DNA of 64,000 bases, from positions 471,062 through 535,061 of the forward strand of contig DS990262.1 in NCBI GenBank assembly GCA_000155435.1, given 5' to 3'. Positions 418-52,880 of this stretch are shown here, piece by piece. Below the pieces are notes generated by a model, which had not been told where the DNA came from, did not search any database, and saw nothing but the letters and a program-made list of their open reading frames with translations. Numbering within the stretch: the stretch's first letter is position 1; the number at the start of each line of letters is the position of its first letter. Both the position numbers and the translations under genes were made by a program. Origin of the DNA: Clostridiales bacterium 1_7_47FAA. Its GTDB lineage: Bacteria; Bacillota; Clostridia; Lachnospirales; Lachnospiraceae.

Positions 418-2697
<2,280 letters not shown>

Positions 2698-11127: not shown

Positions 11128-12528
11128 ATGATATTGATTCGGAACGGGCGAGTCATAGGGCCTGCAGAAGGACTGGACATAAAGGCGGATGTGGTGCTGG
11201 ATGGAGGAAAGATTGCTTGTATCATCCCGGCGGCAGGTCTTGGGAAGGACGGGAATGTGATTACTGGCAGTGCAGCCGCAGATAACACAGCCGCGGACCA
11301 TGCAGCCGTAGCCATTGCAACTGCAGACAGCGCAACCGTGGACCATGCAGCCGCAGACAGCCGCCGCTACACGCAGGTCATAGACGCCGAAGGTATGATT
11401 GTAGCGCCTGGCCTGGTGGATGTGCATGTACATTTCCGGGACCCCGGGCTTACCTATAAGGAGGACATACACACAGGGGCAAAGGCGGCTGCAAAAGGCG
11501 GTTTTACCACAGTGGTCTGCATGGCCAACACAAAGCCCATTGTTGACAATAAGGAGACACTGGGTTACGTGCTGGAGGAGGGGAAGAAAACCGGAATCCA
11601 TGTACTCAGCTGCGCCGCCGTGTCCATGGGCTTTAAGGGGCAGGAACTGACGGATATGGAAGGACTGCTGGCGGCCGGCGCGGCCGGGTTCACGGATGAT
11701 GGGATACCGCTGATGGACGGGGCATTTGTGCGCGCCGCCATGGAAGAAGCAGCGCGGTTGGATACCGTACTCAGCTTCCATGAGGAGGACAAGGCATTTA
11801 TCAGGGAAAATGGAATCAACCATGGCAGGGTATCGGACAGGCTGGGCATCTATGGTTCCCCGGCGCTGGCAGAGGACTCCCTGGTTGCCAGGGACTGCAT
11901 GATTGCCCTGGATACCGGGGCAACCGTGGATATCCAGCATATCAGTTCCGGCCATTCCGTGGAAATGGTCCGTCTGGCCAAGAAGCTGGGGGCTAAGGTA
12001 TGGGCGGAGGTAACGCCCCATCATTTCACACTGACAGAGGATGCGGTGGAGGTACATGGGACATTGGCAAAAATGAATCCGCCCCTGAGGACGGAACAGG
12101 ACAGGCAGATGCTCATAGAGGGCCTGAAGGACGGGACCATTGACATGATTGCAACCGACCATGCCCCTCACAGCAAAGAGGAGAAGGAACGTCCGCTGAC
12201 AGAGGCACCCAGCGGAATCCTGGGACTGGAGACAGCCCTTGCCCTGGGCATTACCAACCTGGTAAAGCCCGGCCACCTGACGATGTCACAGCTGATGGAA
12301 AAGATGAGCCTTAACCCCGCCAGGCTGTACAAGCTGGACTGCGGCCGCATGGAGCCGGGCGCACCAGCGGACCTTGTGATATTTGATGCCGGAAGGCAGT
12401 GGAAGGTGGAAGGATTTGAGTCTAAATCCTCCAACAGCCCGTTCCTTGGGGAAACGCTTACAGGTAAGGTCATGTATACAATATGCGGAGGAAAGGTTGT
12501 TTATGGAGATGGCGGAGATGGGGAGTAA
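11128..12528 (+). CDS. pyrC: Dihydroorotase with Ala/Asp/Thr-rich insertion
   Basis: 466 residues; interconverts carbamoyl-aspartate and dihydroorotate in pyrimidine synthesis. The zinc motif DVHVHFRDPG, GFTDDGIP, QHISSG and ATDHAPHSKEEK are all present, matching type I bacterial dihydroorotases of about 425-430 residues. The extra length is a low-complexity insertion at about residues 45-82 (AAADNTAADHAA, ATADSATVDHAAAD) in the N-terminal beta region before the metal centre. Such an insertion is unusual and probably a surface loop. It lies between the metallo-hydrolase and a HAD phosphatase, overlapping the latter by 26 nt. Confidence 0.93.
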   Translation: MILIRNGRVIGPAEGLDIKADVVLDGGKIACIIPAAGLGKDGNVITGSAAADNTAADHAAVAIATADSATVDHAAADSRRYTQVIDAEGMIVAPGLVDVHVHFRDPGLTYKEDIHTGAKAAAKGGFTTVVCMANTKPIVDNKETLGYVLEEGKKTGIHVLSCAAVSMGFKGQELTDMEGLLAAGAAGFTDDGIPLMDGAFVRAAMEEAARLDTVLSFHEEDKAFIRENGINHGRVSDRLGIYGSPALAEDSLVARDCMIALDTGATVDIQHISSGHSVEMVRLAKKLGAKVWAEVTPHHFTLTEDAVEVHGTLAKMNPPLRTEQDRQMLIEGLKDGTIDMIATDHAPHSKEEKERPLTEAPSGILGLETALALGITNLVKPGHLTMSQLMEKMSLNPARLYKLDCGRMEPGAPADLVIFDAGRQWKVEGFESKSSNSPFLGETLTGKVMYTICGGKVVYGDGGDGE

Positions 12529-22203: not shown

Positions 22204-22298
22204 TAAAGGGCTGCCGGTATCTGCCTGACCGTTGATTGAGGTCCGTATATCCATATCATATGAAGCCTGCGGGATGTCTGGGTTTATGACAGTCCGTG

Positions 22299-22473
22299 GG
22301 CTTTGTGTTTGTGGCAGGTCATAGGCTTTATGTTTGTGGCAGGTCGTGGGCTTTGTGTTTGTGGTAGGTCGTGGGTTTTGTGTTTGCAGCAGGTTGTAGG
22401 GTTTACGCCTGTGGCAGGTCATGGGTTTTATGTTTGTGTCAGCCTGAAGGCTTTATATTTATAGTGGCCTGTA
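22299..22473. repeat. 25-bp tandem repeat, 7 units
   Basis: Seven head-to-tail 25-bp units, typified by GGCTTTGTGTTTGTGGCAGG followed by TCATA. The first four are close copies and the last three are more diverged (for example GGCTTTATATTTATAGTGGC). There are no spacers, so this is not a CRISPR array, and 25 is not a multiple of 3, so it is not a conserved peptide repeat. Strong G/T versus A/C strand bias. Confidence 0.92.
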
Positions 22474-44969: not shown

Positions 44970-45070
44970 AAATTGCTCCCGGGTCATAATGATAATTTCC
45001 CCTACATAGATTTAGAGTGGGTACTCTTAAGGAATGTCCACGATAGCAGGAAGCGTGGGAAGATATGGAG

Positions 45071-45107
45071 TGCTCCCAAAGGCGTGTATGTCTTTGGGGG
45101 CATTTTT
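45071..45107 (+). terminator. Terminator-like hairpin in the leader of the P-type ATPase gene
   Basis: TGCTCCCAAAG (45071-45081) pairs with CTTTGGGGGCA (45092-45102) with one T-G pair, then TTTTT. It may end the M20 message or act as an attenuator. Upstream (44970-45070) small stems GAGT/ACTC and CCACG/CGTGG are seen, but no riboswitch class is recognised. Confidence 0.7.
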
Positions 45108-45151
45108 GTACCCTGAAAAAGATGATGTGTTTGGGAAGAGGGGAGAGACAG

Positions 45152-47944
45152 ATGGCAGAATGGCATGAACTGTCAGGAACGGATGTATTGAGCAGCCTTG
45201 AAACCGGACGGCAGGGAATCGATGATAGGGACGCCGAGGCAAGGCTTGAAAAATATGGGGAAAATGTACTGGAGGACAACGGCAGGCTTCAGTGGTGGCA
45301 GGTGTTCCTGTCCCAGTTTAAGGATTTGCTGGTCATCATCCTGATTGCGGCGGCAGCTGTCTCCATGCTGACAGGTGACCCGGAGAGCGCCATGGTCATT
45401 TTCGCAGTCCTTCTGCTTAACGCGGTGCTTGGCACGGTCCAGCACCAGAAGGCAGAGAAATCCCTGGACAGCTTAAAGCAGCTGTCCTCCCCGGAAGCCA
45501 GGGTCATCCGGGCGGGAGCGCTGGAAGTGATTCCCTCCTCAATGGTGGTCCCCGGGGATATCCTGATGATGGAAACAGGGGACCTGGTGGCTGCGGACGG
45601 GCGGCTTTTAGAGGTTCACGGGTTTACTGTCAATGAAAGCTCCCTGACCGGGGAATCACTCAGTGTGGAAAAACATACAAAGGCCATAAAAGGCAGGGAA
45701 TCCGCAGTGGCGCTGGCGGACAGGACCAATATGGTGTTTTCCGGTTCCCTGGTGACCTCGGGCCGGGCCATGGCCGTTGTCACTGCCACGGGCATGGACA
45801 CGGAGATTGGCAGGATCGCGTCCCTGATGAATGAGACAAAGGAGAAGAAAACGCCGCTCCAGGTCAGCCTGGACCGTTTTTCCGGCCGCCTGGCCATGGC
45901 CATCATAGCCATATGCGGCCTGGTATTCCTTCTGAGCCTGTACCGCAGGGAGCCGGTACTGGACGCCCTGATGTTTGCAGTGGCCCTGGCGGTGGCGGCG
46001 ATTCCCGAGGCCCTCAGTTCCATTGTCACCATCGTCCAGGCCATGGGAACCCAGAAGATGGCAAAGGAACAGGCCATCATCAAGGATTTAAAGGCAGTGG
46101 AAAGCCTGGGCTGTGTGTCTGTAATCTGTTCCGATAAAACAGGCACCCTGACACAGAACCGGATGGACGTGGAACGGGTCTATATCAACCACACGGAACA
46201 GGATGTGATGTGGCTGGGCCGCAGCAGGAACAGGATGGATGTAAAACTGTTCCTGTACGGCGCCGTGCTCAACAACAATGCCTCCTCGGGCGGGGGACAG
46301 GATGAGGGGGACCCCATGGAGATTGCCCTGCTCCACATGGCGCGGGAGGCGGGGATGATTCCGGAGCAGGTGCGGATGATGAACCACAGGAAACGGGAAA
46401 TCCCCTTTGACTCAGCCAGGAAGCTGATGACCACGGTTAACGAGGTGGAGGGACAGGAGCTGATTTTTGTCAAAGGCGCCGTGGATGTGCTTCTGAAAAA
46501 ATGCAGCCGCCTTGCAAACCCGGCCGCCAGCCAGGCAGAGGGGAAAACCAGCGTCAAGCTGTCTGCCGCCGAAGCAGGAGACAGATTCCCGGATGGACCT
46601 GAAGGCGGAACCGGATACGGGAGCAAAACCGGATACAGGAGTGGAACCGGATACGGGGGCGGAGCCGGATACAGGAGCGGAACCGGAACCGGGACCGGGG
46701 ACGTTCCCTCCCGCAGCCTGTCCTCCTCGGACAGACAGAGAATCCTGAACCAGAACACCCTCTGGTCGTCCAGGGGACTGCGCGTGCTGGCATTGGCCTG
46801 CCGTCCTTATGCGGAGGCAGGCAAGAACGGCGAGGAGGAGGACCTTATCTTCCTTGGCCTTATGGCGATGATGGATCCCCCCAGGCCGGAATCACGTTCA
46901 GCGGTTGCCAGCGCCAGGCAGGCCGGAATCCGCCCGGTGATGATAACCGGAGACCACAAGGTAACGGCCATGGCAATCGCGGAGAGGATTGGCATATTGA
47001 CGCCGGGGGACATGGCAGCCACCGGGGCGGAGCTGGACCTGATGGAGGAAGAAGAGTTAGACCGGAGGCTGGAGCACATATCCGTGTACGCCCGCGTTTC
47101 GCCGGAGCATAAGATACGGATTGTCAGCGCATGGCAGAGAAGGGGCCATATCGTAGCCATGACAGGGGACGGCGTCAACGATGCCCCGGCCCTTAAAAAG
47201 GCGGATATCGGCGTGGCCATGGGCATTACCGGGACCGAGGTGTCCAAGGACGCCGCATCCATGATCCTGGCGGATGATAATTTTGCCACCATCATAAAGG
47301 CGGTGGCCAATGGCAGGAACGTTTACCGGAACATAAAGAATGCCATCCAGTTCCTGCTGTCCGGTAACATGGCGGGAATCCTATGTGTACTGTATACCTC
47401 CCTGCTGGCGCTGCCGCTGCCCTTTGCACCGGTGCACCTGCTGTTCATCAACCTGATTACGGATTCCCTTCCCGCCATTGCAATCGGCATGGAGCCGCCG
47501 GAGGACGGACTGTTAAAGGAACCGCCCAGGAATCCCAGGGAGGGGATACTGACCGCCTCCTTCATACGCGACATCCTGGTCCAGGGCGGCCTCATAGCGG
47601 CAGCCACCATGTGGGCCTATACCACGGGGCTTCATGAGGGAGGGCCGGGAAGGGCGTGTACCATGGCATTCTCCACCCTGACCCTGGCCCGTCTGTTCCA
47701 TGGATTTAACTGCCGCAGCAGCCATTCCATCATCCGGCTGGGACTGGGAAGCAACCTGTACAGCGTCATGGCATTCCAACTGGGCGCCCTGCTTCTGGCA
47801 GCCGTATTATTCGTTCCGGGGCTGCAGATCATGTTTGCGGCGGCGGATCTGAGCCTGAGCCAGCTGTCCACCATTGTTTCAGCTGCATTCCTGCCCACTT
47901 TGGTAATCCAGATACATAAAATAATAAAGGAATCCATTGTCTAA
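45152..47944 (+). CDS. P-type cation-transporting ATPase (Ca2+/SERCA-like)
   Basis: 930 residues. Cation ATPase N-domain (HELSGTDVLSSLET), A-domain TGES (SSLTGESLSVEKH), phosphorylation motif CSDKTGTLTQNRM, hinge MTGDGVNDAPALKKADIGVAMG, and M6 LFINLITDSLPAIAIGMEPPE. M4 reads AIPEALSS where PEGLP is usual. The ion is probably Ca2+ or another divalent cation. The nucleotide-binding domain carries a Gly/Thr/Tyr-rich insertion (about 486-515) encoded by 18-bp repeats, absent from usual family members. ATG 45152 follows GAGGGGAGAG. Confidence 0.92.
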   Translation: MAEWHELSGTDVLSSLETGRQGIDDRDAEARLEKYGENVLEDNGRLQWWQVFLSQFKDLLVIILIAAAAVSMLTGDPESAMVIFAVLLLNAVLGTVQHQKAEKSLDSLKQLSSPEARVIRAGALEVIPSSMVVPGDILMMETGDLVAADGRLLEVHGFTVNESSLTGESLSVEKHTKAIKGRESAVALADRTNMVFSGSLVTSGRAMAVVTATGMDTEIGRIASLMNETKEKKTPLQVSLDRFSGRLAMAIIAICGLVFLLSLYRREPVLDALMFAVALAVAAIPEALSSIVTIVQAMGTQKMAKEQAIIKDLKAVESLGCVSVICSDKTGTLTQNRMDVERVYINHTEQDVMWLGRSRNRMDVKLFLYGAVLNNNASSGGGQDEGDPMEIALLHMAREAGMIPEQVRMMNHRKREIPFDSARKLMTTVNEVEGQELIFVKGAVDVLLKKCSRLANPAASQAEGKTSVKLSAAEAGDRFPDGPEGGTGYGSKTGYRSGTGYGGGAGYRSGTGTGTGDVPSRSLSSSDRQRILNQNTLWSSRGLRVLALACRPYAEAGKNGEEEDLIFLGLMAMMDPPRPESRSAVASARQAGIRPVMITGDHKVTAMAIAERIGILTPGDMAATGAELDLMEEEELDRRLEHISVYARVSPEHKIRIVSAWQRRGHIVAMTGDGVNDAPALKKADIGVAMGITGTEVSKDAASMILADDNFATIIKAVANGRNVYRNIKNAIQFLLSGNMAGILCVLYTSLLALPLPFAPVHLLFINLITDSLPAIAIGMEPPEDGLLKEPPRNPREGILTASFIRDILVQGGLIAAATMWAYTTGLHEGGPGRACTMAFSTLTLARLFHGFNCRSSHSIIRLGLGSNLYSVMAFQLGALLLAAVLFVPGLQIMFAAADLSLSQLSTIVSAAFLPTLVIQIHKIIKESIV
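46607..46696 (+). repeat. 18-bp tandem repeat, 5 units, inside the P-type ATPase gene
   Basis: Units of the type GGAACCGGATACGGGAGC encode six-residue repeats GTGYGS, KTGYRS, GTGYGG, GAGYRS and a degenerate GTGTGT. The frame is kept. It lies in a loop of the nucleotide-binding domain. Confidence 0.93.
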
Positions 47945-49454: not shown

Positions 49455-49515
49455 TGTATTTGCCGCATCACTGAATGTTAGGATGAAGAATGAAGCAGAT
49501 AAGGGGGCACATAAT

Positions 49516-52500
49516 ATGGAACAGAATTTATATGATTTGATGGATTGGGCGGGAATTGAGGAACTGGTGTATTCAGAGGCATCCAATCCCCACGCCATGC
49601 TGGGACCTCATCTGACGGAATCCGGCCTTTTGATTCAGGCCCTGATTCCCACGGCAGCGGAGGTTGTTGTGAAGATTGCATCCACTGGCAGGAAGTATCC
49701 CATGGAGCTGGCTGACGAGGCTGGATTCTTTGCAGTCCTCATTCCCAGGAAGAGCATGGCGGCATATACCCTGCTTGTGACCTATGACAATGGTGTGACG
49801 GATGAAATCCATGACCCATACGCCTATGCGCCGCAGTTCGCTTCAGAGGACCTTAAGAAATTTGCAGCAGGCATACATTATTCCATCTATGATAAGATGG
49901 GCGCGCATCCAATGACCATAAACGGTGTTTCAGGCGTGTATTTTTCCGTATGGGCGCCCTGCGCCATGCGCGTCAGCGTGGTGGGGGACTTTAACCTCTG
50001 GGATGGAAGACGCCATCAGATGCGCCGGATTGGGGAAGGCGACGGCAGTGTGTTCGAACTGTTTATCCCCGGTCTGACAACAGGCGTGATTTATAAGTAT
50101 GAGGTCAAGACAAAGGCAGGACTGCCCATGTTAAAGGCCGACCCCTACGGCAATTATGCGGAGCTGCGTCCCAACAACGCTTCGGTTGTGTGGGATATCA
50201 ACCAGTACCAGTGGAACGACAGGGCCTGGATGGACAAGCGGGCCAAGACCGGTACAAAGGACAGGCCGTTCAATATCTATGAGGTCCATCTTGGTTCCTG
50301 GATGAGAAAAGAAGCCGCAAAGGATGAGTCCGGAGAGGATATAGTGGGCTCGGAATTCTATAATTACAGGGAAATAGCAGTCAGGCTGGCTGATTATGTG
50401 CAGGACATGGGATATACCCATGTGGAGCTGATGCCGGTAATGGAGCACCCGCTGGACGAGTCCTGGGGATACCAGGTCACAGGCTATTATGCGCCAACCA
50501 GCAGATATGGCACGCCCGATGACTTCATGTACTTTATGGACTACATGCATGGCAGGGGAATCGGGGTTATCCTGGACTGGGTGCCCGCCCATTTCCCGCG
50601 TGATGCTTACGGCATGGCTAATTTTGACGGCACATGCGTTTATGAACACATGGACCCCCGCAAGGGTTCGCACCCACATTGGGGAACGTTGATTTACAAT
50701 TACGGCCGTCCCGGGGTTTCCAACTTCCTGATTGCCAATGCGCTTTTCTGGGCTGAGAAGTACCATGCGGATGCTATCCGTATGGATGCGGTGGCCTCCA
50801 TGCTGTACCTGGATTATGGAAAGAATGACGGGGAATGGGTGCCTAACATATATGGCGGCAACGAGAACCTGGAAGCAGTGGAATTCCTGAAGCATCTGAA
50901 CTCTGTGTTCAAAGGGCGCGGGGATGGAGCGGTCATCATTGCAGAGGAGTCCACGGCATGGCCCATGGTAACAGGGAACGCAAAAGAAGGCGGTCTGGGC
51001 TTTGACTATAAGTGGAACATGGGCTGGATGAATGATTTCACCAACTATATGCGCTGCGACCCGTATTTCAGGAAGAATAATTACGGCGAACTGGTATTTT
51101 CCATGCTGTATGCGTACAGCGAGGACTTTGTGCTGGTATTTTCACATGACGAGGTGGTCCATGGCAAGGGTTCCATGATTGGAAAGATGCCCGGCGCCAC
51201 ATTAGAGACAAAGGCAGAGAACCTGAGGACGGCCTATGCATTCATGATGGGACATCCGGGCAAGAAGCTGCTGTTCATGGGCCAGGAGTATGCCCAGGTC
51301 AGCGAGTGGAATGAGGGCGCGTCCCTGGAATGGGGGCTGTTGGAACTGCCTGTCCATAAGAATATGCAGGACTACGTGAGGACGCTGAATAAGCTGTACC
51401 TGGAACATCCTGCCCTGTATGAGATGGATTATGACCCGGAGGGCTTTGAATGGATTAACTGCAGCTATCAGAATGAAAGCATGGTCATGTTTGTCCGCAA
51501 GAGCAAAAAGGCCGGGGAAACACTGTTGTTCATCTGTAATTTTGATAACATGGAACATGAGAAGTTCCGGGTAGGGGTTCCCTTCGAGGGCAGATACAAG
51601 GAAATCTTCAACACCGATGCAAAGGAATTTGGCGGCAGCGGCAAGGTCAATGGCCGTGTGAAGTCATCTAAGAAGATTGAATGGGATGAGAAGGAAGATT
51701 CCATTGAAGTCAATATCCCTCCCATGAGTGTCAGCATATATACCTGCACGCCTGAGCCAAAGGCAAAAAAGGCTGGGACTGGCAAGGCAGCGGCCGGGAA
51801 AGGGCAGGCGGCTAAGACGGTTAAGAAGGCTGGGCCGGGGAAGAAGGCGGAAGTAAAAGCAGAGTCGGAGAAGAAGGCGGAAGTAAAAGCAGAGTCGGAG
51901 AAGAAGGCGGAAGTGAAAGCGGAGCCAGAGAAGAAGGCAGAAGTGAAAGCGAAACCTGAGAAGAAGGCAGAAGTGAAAGCGGAGCCTGAGAAGAAGGTGG
52001 AAGTGAAAGCGGAGCCTGAGAAGAAGGTGGAAGTGAAAGCGGAGCCAGAGAAGAAGGTGGAAGTAAAAGCGGAACCTGAGAAGAAGGCGGAAGTGAAAGC
52101 GAAACCTGAGAAGAAGGTGGAAGTGAAAGCGGAGCCAGAGAAGAAGGCGGAAGTGAAAGCGGAGCCTGAGAAGAAGGTGGAAGTAAAAGCCGAGCCTGAG
52201 AAGAAGGCAGAAGTGAAATCTGAACCGGAAAAGAAGGCAGAGAAGAAACCAGCGCCTAAGAGGCTATCCACTAAAAAAGAGGATCAAAAAAAGCTGACAA
52301 CTGCTAAGGCAGAGCAGAAGCAGATATCCACCGCCAAGACCGATCAGAAGCAGATATCCACTGCCAAGACAGAGCAGAAGCAAATATCCACCGCCAAGAC
52401 CGACCAGAAGCAGATATCCACTTCCAAGACCGACCAGAAGCAGATATCTACCGCTAAGACCGACCAGAAGCAGATATCCACCGCCAAGACCGATCAGAAG

Positions 52501-52821
52501 CAGATATCCACCGCCAAGACAGGCCAGAAGCAGATATCCACAGCAAAGACAGACCAGAAGCAGATATCCACCACCAAGACAGACCAGAAGCAGATATCCA
52601 CCGCTAAGGCAGACCAGAAGCAGATATCCACCGCCAAAACAGACCAGAAGAAGCTGTCTACAGCTAAGAAAGAAACCGGCAGGATATCCACGAAAAAAGA
52701 AAGAACAAAACAGATATCCACAAAAAAGACTGATCCCAAACAGATATCCACATCAAAGACAGGACAGAAGCGGCTGGGGACATCCAAAGCAGAGGCCGGG
52801 AAAACAGAAGATGACAGATAA
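49516..52821 (+). CDS. glgB: 1,4-alpha-glucan branching enzyme with long Lys-rich repeat tail
   Basis: 1101 residues. Residues 1-750 form a complete GlgB: N1/CBM48 domains (GVSGVYFSVWAPCAMRVSVV), GH13 barrel with nucleophile Asp424 (AIRMDAVASM), acid Glu477 (IIAEEST) and Asp545 (FSHDEVVHGK), and the usual C-terminal beta domain. Typical GlgB ends near here. The remaining 350 residues are extra: a Lys/Ala linker, 13 units of KK[A/V]EVKAEPE (776-905), then 18 units of the QISTAKTDQK type (916-1095), very basic overall. The enzyme should be active in glycogen branching; the tail's role is unknown. ATG 49516 follows AAGGGGG; 49483 is an alternative. Confidence 0.95.
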   Translation: MEQNLYDLMDWAGIEELVYSEASNPHAMLGPHLTESGLLIQALIPTAAEVVVKIASTGRKYPMELADEAGFFAVLIPRKSMAAYTLLVTYDNGVTDEIHDPYAYAPQFASEDLKKFAAGIHYSIYDKMGAHPMTINGVSGVYFSVWAPCAMRVSVVGDFNLWDGRRHQMRRIGEGDGSVFELFIPGLTTGVIYKYEVKTKAGLPMLKADPYGNYAELRPNNASVVWDINQYQWNDRAWMDKRAKTGTKDRPFNIYEVHLGSWMRKEAAKDESGEDIVGSEFYNYREIAVRLADYVQDMGYTHVELMPVMEHPLDESWGYQVTGYYAPTSRYGTPDDFMYFMDYMHGRGIGVILDWVPAHFPRDAYGMANFDGTCVYEHMDPRKGSHPHWGTLIYNYGRPGVSNFLIANALFWAEKYHADAIRMDAVASMLYLDYGKNDGEWVPNIYGGNENLEAVEFLKHLNSVFKGRGDGAVIIAEESTAWPMVTGNAKEGGLGFDYKWNMGWMNDFTNYMRCDPYFRKNNYGELVFSMLYAYSEDFVLVFSHDEVVHGKGSMIGKMPGATLETKAENLRTAYAFMMGHPGKKLLFMGQEYAQVSEWNEGASLEWGLLELPVHKNMQDYVRTLNKLYLEHPALYEMDYDPEGFEWINCSYQNESMVMFVRKSKKAGETLLFICNFDNMEHEKFRVGVPFEGRYKEIFNTDAKEFGGSGKVNGRVKSSKKIEWDEKEDSIEVNIPPMSVSIYTCTPEPKAKKAGTGKAAAGKGQAAKTVKKAGPGKKAEVKAESEKKAEVKAESEKKAEVKAEPEKKAEVKAKPEKKAEVKAEPEKKVEVKAEPEKKVEVKAEPEKKVEVKAEPEKKAEVKAKPEKKVEVKAEPEKKAEVKAEPEKKVEVKAEPEKKAEVKSEPEKKAEKKPAPKRLSTKKEDQKKLTTAKAEQKQISTAKTDQKQISTAKTEQKQISTAKTDQKQISTSKTDQKQISTAKTDQKQISTAKTDQKQISTAKTGQKQISTAKTDQKQISTTKTDQKQISTAKADQKQISTAKTDQKKLSTAKKETGRISTKKERTKQISTKKTDPKQISTSKTGQKRLGTSKAEAGKTEDDR
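51841..52230 (+). repeat. 30-bp tandem repeat array A in glgB, 13 units
   Basis: Thirteen contiguous 30-bp units (start AAGAAGGCGGAAGTAAAAGC) encoding KK[AV]EVKA[EK][PS]E, differing mainly at silent or Ala/Val, Glu/Lys positions. Alternating charge predicts a rigid single alpha-helix or extended stalk. Confidence 0.96.
52261..52800 (+). repeat. 30-bp tandem repeat array B in glgB, 18 units (11 close copies)
   Basis: Eleven close copies (52321-52650) of a 30-bp unit starting CAGATATCCACCGCCAAGAC, encoding QISTAKTDQK, flanked by two diverged units upstream and five downstream. Different in sequence from array A but the same 10-residue period. Rich in Thr, Ser, Lys and Gln. Confidence 0.96.
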
Positions 52822-52848
52822 AGAGCAGAAAAACCATATAATACAAGG

Positions 52849-52880
52849 AGAGCGCAGGCCCCAGGCTTTGCGCTCTTTCC
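52849..52880 (+). terminator. Terminator after glgB
   Basis: AGAGCGCA (52849-52856) pairs with TGCGCTCT (52869-52876), followed by TTCC. The right arm overlaps the -35 region of the next promoter. Confidence 0.7.

Follow-up and report, generated by a model that had tools for sequence, protein, structure and literature searches.

A lineage-restricted decapeptide array in the tail of a glycogen branching enzyme recurs on unrelated proteins

The usual picture of bacterial glycogen enzymes is of folded proteins that lack long tails. We found no tail of the kind described below in the open-licence literature searched, and none appears in the passages covered of a review of prokaryotic alpha-glucan enzymes (PMC11046441). 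A system that may be alike in its working is CsoS2, the repeat scaffold of the alpha-carboxysome, where short motifs recurring along a disordered chain are known to drive assembly (PMC11365436). The likeness is drawn in terms of a disordered chain, repeated short motifs and multivalent binding; no sequence relation is claimed, and the GlgB chain is instead fused to an enzyme. HC2-like histone-like tails are similar as Lys-rich low-complexity sequence, whereas acidic residues nearly balance the charge in the GlgB tail. A weak match of Trypan_PARP (procyclic acidic repetitive protein, PARP) to residues 764-850, at 23 bits versus a cut-off of 100, was judged compositional and membership was rejected. 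The new part is a recurrent, lineage-restricted decapeptide, and the GlgB that carries it is itself ordinary.

The gene lies in a 64,000-nucleotide stretch of the genome of Clostridiales bacterium 1_7_47FAA, hereafter the window (Table 1). The product shares the entire folded core of known GlgB_N-containing GH13 branching enzymes (residues 22-755) and differs from them by a tail of 352 residues, made up of a linker, array 1, a spacer, array 2 and ten last residues. The Pfam domains follow the order expected of GlgB (GlgB_N, CBM_48, catalytic, C-terminal), and the NCBIfam GlgB model NF003811 matched residues 123-753 at 905.5 bits, above its cut-off of 741. Residues D435, E488 and D556, which we take to be the GH13 catalytic residues, were invariant in an alignment of 20 homologues. 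With these features the initial annotation's description of a complete, catalytically intact GlgB holds at the level of sequence, and the enzyme is of the GlgB_N type and ordinary apart from its tail. The nearest solved chain by sequence is 5gr5_A, and the best PDB match stops at residue 758. Translation more likely starts at ATG 49516 (MEQNLYDLMDW, with AAGGGGG upstream), which would give 1101 residues. An antisense frame at 51468-52271 is probably a by-product of the repeat. Terminator-like sites such as the hairpin beyond the stop codon were no commoner in the region than in shuffled sequence (6 found versus a mean of 5.0).

Table 1. Features of the glgB gene, positions counted from the first letter of the window
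Feature	Position	Strand	Residues	Evidence or description
glgB ORF with tail	49483..52821	+	1112 aa	ORF list, Pfam and NCBIfam matches
GlgB_N domain	49546..49821	+	22-113	Pfam PF22019, 99.8 bits
CBM_48 domain	49894..50151	+	138-223	Pfam PF02922, 88.3 bits
Alpha-amylase domain			304-371	Pfam
Alpha-amylase_C domain	51451..51747	+	657-755	Pfam PF02806; all-beta, end of folded core
Linker	51751..51837	+		Rich in Lys, Ala and Gly
Array 1	51838..52227	+		13 decapeptides, EKK[AV]EVKAEP
Inter-array spacer	52228..52248	+		Seven residues, EKKAEKK
Array 2	52249..52788	+		18 decapeptides, mostly TDQKQISTAK
Terminator-like hairpin	52847..52878	+		12 pairs, 3' of stop

Counting by motif confirmed the 13 and 18 units reported initially. 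The first unit of array 1 begins with GKK rather than EKK, and the units of array 2 are spaced by exactly 10 residues. Tandem Repeats Finder returned a 30-bp period for array 1 (13.3 copies, 51840-52238, 90% matches, 0% indels) and for array 2 (11.5 copies, 52306-52650, 88% matches, 0% indels), with 2.6 more copies of array 2 at 52683-52759 (83% matches, 4% indels). The period that had been called perfect is so in unit length and not in unit sequence.

Four further tandem repeats were noted in the window. A 15-bp repeat at 2341-2453 encodes an HPDAQ-type insert near the C-terminal end of ORF 418-2697 (+), by eye a sigma-54 activator, and another at 11271-11358 encodes an Ala/Asp/Thr-rich insert in ORF 11128-12528 (+), by eye a dihydroorotase. 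A P-type Ca-ATPase (ORF 45065-47944, +) contains an 18-bp repeat at 46605-46694 that encodes a stretch rich in Gly, Thr and Tyr. The fourth, of 25 bp and about six copies (22295-22442), is overlapped by a single ORF of at least 60 residues, a 134-residue frame on the minus strand.

Within its own genome the tail stands apart. Among 705 ORFs sampled from the window and 40 other stretches (864 kb of the 6.55-Mb genome), six have at least 20% Lys in their last 40 residues, the window GlgB being one; inspection by eye found no repeat array in the other five. Lys-rich tails as a proteome-wide trait were accordingly not seen in this sample, and searches of the genome with the tail gave nothing convincing outside glgB.

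The initial annotation knew of no other GlgB with such a tail and had proposed a comparison across Enterocloster, the genus as taken here. This comparison, using one genome per species, located a GlgB of the window type with a basic tail in 17/17 genomes and a match to the array profile in 16/17, so that the tail is a trait of the genus at large. The exception, G008, has the shortest tail of the genus and no profile match. Measured from the end of the core, genus tails span 45 to 352 residues, two of them (L093 and L102) cut by a contig end. The number of units varies from 0 to 18 between species, in line with the initial annotation, which had predicted variation between strains. Array 2 is the element common to the genus, and array 1 occurs in the window protein and is absent from the other genus tails read; the two different arrays are thus both present as described, but they are not equivalent. 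Array 2-type arrays also occur in a one-contig genome (G002) and a two-contig genome (G004), which argues against an assembly artefact in general.

The genus array matches listed lie in the glgB frame with three exceptions: a contig-end fragment (G007:C32), a match just downstream of glgB (G009:C22), and a weak match (G011:C7, E 4.5e-4) that was not counted as a carrier. In G009 (L104) the GlgB tail reads on with another composition, and further repeat units lie downstream in a second frame of that contig, which suggests a frameshift. The GlgB core of L001, from an uncultured Enterocloster, is identical to that of G014, and on this basis we take the genus to be Enterocloster.

Frame lengths of glycogen synthase and phosphorylase leave no room for a long tail, which rules out a tag common to these enzymes. 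A second GlgB paralogue, which lacks GlgB_N, ends 1-2 residues past the core at 11 of the 13 loci L105-L117, with L110 and L113 ambiguous. A short Lys/Ala/Ser-rich N-terminal stretch was seen in those second paralogues that were read (L121, L130-L132 and L105-L115).

Ten-residue spacing could be read in 14/17 genus tails, and 127 units gave the consensus x-E-[QP]-K-[KQ]-[ILV]-x-T-x-K, where the selection pattern itself prescribes an aliphatic residue at its position and restricts what may stand at the Thr and Lys positions. Thr fills its position in 94% of these units, the pattern having allowed only T, A or S. Such a recurrent Thr could make the tail a modification platform, phosphorylated or glycosylated so as to switch charge or prime glucan, and the same residue is regular in the arrays of other proteins described below. 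At the eight genus loci read, the surroundings of glgB are largely conserved. The neighbours scanned, eight in all, included neither a Ser/Thr kinase nor a glycosyltransferase, and we consider modification a very improbable purpose.

Structure prediction, from an alignment of only 20 rows, gave a mostly well-folded core and pLDDT below 50 from residue 765, covering 765-904 and 906-1112 at about 25-35 nearly throughout, with no secondary structure. The tail is thus predicted to be a disordered chain, as CsoS2 has. From residue 757 on (356 residues) it contains 95 Lys, 5 Arg, 46 Glu and 13 Asp, a net charge of +41, and neither aromatic residues nor Cys. The initial annotation was right to call it charged, and it is nearly charge-balanced rather than polycationic. 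Most genus tails with arrays likewise have a net charge of about +0.1 per residue, with acidic residues recurring in the unit.

This balance bears on the idea of a polyanion tether, by which a Lys-rich chain would attach to RNA, ribosomes, DNA or polyphosphate and hold its carrier in place. All genus GlgB tails analysed are net positive, and Lys-rich low-complexity regions have been linked to nucleic-acid binding in prokaryotes (PMC6821194). However, with a net charge near +0.1 per residue, a plain nucleic-acid-binding polycation is less convincing than a near-balanced series of docking motifs, and charge does not explain the aliphatic and Thr positions. HC2 scored 20 bits versus a gathering cut-off of 40 on two of the SCP2-like carriers introduced below, and it is not among the Pfam matches of the window protein. 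Tethering to a polyanion strikes us as rather improbable.

Units of one array differ mostly silently. Across 12 genus arrays of at least five units, dN/dS between units ranged from 0.06 to 0.40, and within array 1 it was 0.09 (12 units used); these ratios are confounded by homogenisation, and several arrays have silent sites close to saturation. For 10 of the 12, dN/dS fell below every draw of a relocation control (28-155 valid draws per array), the exceptions being L091 (0.17 of draws as low) and L092 (0.06). The dominance of silent change in most arrays counts against a generic low-complexity tail, in which 30-bp slippage would expand a Lys-rich stub, selection would keep it soluble, near-balanced and in frame, and the product would serve as a spacer or entropic bristle that binds no particular partner. 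The two arrays not clearly below the control speak for such a tail, as do the range of unit numbers within the genus and the other in-frame tandem repeats in the window. The latter suggest that slippage is common here, and it would supply the raw material in any case. On balance we think a partnerless tail unlikely, while taking it seriously.

Lys-rich GlgB tails are not a one-off. Among the 76 loci considered (the best 80 matches listed, less four that were skipped), 22, including the genus member L001, have a tail of at least 20 residues with at least 18% Lys. Outside the genus these belong mostly to the nearest Lachnospiraceae relatives and most lack the motif, which again favours a generic tail.

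The motif itself is lineage-restricted. We applied a profile built from eight genus arrays, which by its derivation favours finding GlgB, to three genera as well as three broader samples. In the class-wide sample it matched 1/391 genomes, the window's own, and 0/390 others, 15 of them of the same family; this is not what a generic tail would predict. The order sample gave 10/392 at 1e-6, the window's own included, and the family sample 8/299 at E <=1e-5. Two of these eight are genus members, one (G099) is a false match to a secretion-type ATPase whose AERIAREK repeats were judged coiled coil, and one (G268) is a fragment with an N gap that was not counted. A further decapeptide array of EAKKLETAKV type was noted in G268 (C165, L231), beside a run of N.

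Contrary to a decapeptide confined to GlgB, the array was found on other proteins in two genera. In g263, 26/64 genomes match, and 23 of the 26, read directly, encode the array followed by an amylosucrase-like domain, an identity based on the match of the G612 protein to PDB 1g5a (E 1.6e-119). Coordinates give the same order in G716, and in G733 and G614 the array stops at a contig end. In g207, 6/79 genomes match, through one RlmD (TIGR00479, 338 bits) and five SCP2-like proteins. Three of the five match Pfam SCP2, G691 barely; the E value for G702 does not reach 0.001, and the G708 protein was called SCP2-like by eye. GlgBs with arrays outside the genus were found in G031, G044, G604, G224 (without GlgB_N) and Diplocloster modestus (L006, only three units in register). 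The motif and its ten-residue spacing are the same on the other-genus GlgBs, amylosucrase, SCP2-like proteins and RlmD, a recurrence on unrelated proteins that is hard to reconcile with a generic tail. Between genera, no shared neighbour was seen. The array fell below threshold in 38/64 g263 and 73/79 g207 genomes, and with its absence from G008 this indicates that it is dispensable.

In a tree built from 59 GlgB cores, of which 19 have the array, 39 lack it and 1 was left out of the count, the array label requires 5 changes and starred branches force 5; with shuffled labels the average is 16.2. A change may be either a gain or a loss, and the placement of some long branches, including L322, is less certain. 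The array state thus changed at least five times on this tree, which again tells against a generic tail. When arrays of different genes or origins were compared, the best identity over 30 bases stayed within the codon-shuffled range each time (21/21 comparisons). Recent DNA exchange between array genes accordingly finds no support, and the result is what repeated evolution of the peptide would produce.

Four amylosucrase-like carriers merit separate description. In L233, L244, L298 and L303 (G278, G565, G750 and G717, four species) the Asp of RLDAVP and the HD of YLRCHD are lost and the Glu of LLGE is kept, all of which we take to be amylosucrase catalytic residues. These proteins carry about 10-21 units, the count for L303 being uncertain because of an N and a duplicated start. 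Their domains show dN/dS of 0.07-0.20, which marks evolution under constraint, against 0.02-0.04 for intact pairs. A second copy is also present in each genome; it is 63-64% identical to the intact query, sits in a frame of 641-669 residues and gave no array match. All three motifs are present in 18 of the other 19 carriers that have a core; in the remaining one, L305, the pattern for the third motif matched at another site. Judged by these residues, four species keep the array on a catalytically dead amylosucrase.

The initial annotation had suggested anchoring to glycogen, nucleic acid or partner proteins, or condensate formation, any of which the tail may serve. We tentatively favour, at somewhat less than an even chance, a polyvalent docking tail, evolved repeatedly, by which alpha-glucan enzymes would be held on a putative shared partner or granule. 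In its favour are the profile matches and unit spacing in the genus, the bias to silent change, the predicted disorder, the recurrence on unrelated proteins with no other match in the class-wide sample, the label changes on the GlgB tree, the array DNA comparisons, the dead amylosucrases and the CsoS2 precedent. A disordered, nearly charge-balanced tether would carry many copies of a docking motif, [ILV]-x-T-x-K, once per ten residues. Each unit would bind weakly and several jointly by avidity, which would keep the branching enzyme at the site of alpha-glucan synthesis, either on a common partner or on the growing granule. The tag would have evolved several times in Lachnospiraceae, often on enzymes that build alpha-glucan, with motif and spacing fixed, number and linker free, and the body interchangeable, so that even catalysis may be lost. 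Alpha-glucan is the product of three of the five carrier types, namely GlgB with GlgB_N, GlgB lacking it, and amylosucrase. This points to glucan synthesis, but the profile was derived from GlgB, two types are represented by one genome each (G224 and G611), and five is a small number. RlmD and SCP2-like proteins make no glucan, which counts against the docking tail and leaves room for an RNA or general role; RlmD in particular, as an rRNA methyltransferase, would suit a polyanion tether. Also counting against docking are the array's dispensability, the lack of room for a long tail on glycogen synthase and phosphorylase, the GlgB origin of the profile and the frequency of slippage in the window. 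A bolder version of docking, which we hold to be distinctly unlikely, is a family-specific Lachnospiraceae decapeptide address code that arose repeatedly on unrelated proteins and gathers alpha-glucan enzymes into a glycogen-making assembly, with the dead amylosucrase serving as a scaffold in some species.

An apparent curiosity of one gene has thus turned out to be a lineage-wide module. Its motif gives a defined peptide open to testing by fusion, mutation or use as bait. If the docking reading is true, a selected polyvalent tail on GlgB and amylosucrase, even a dead one, would mean that glucan synthesis is spatially organised in some gut bacteria.
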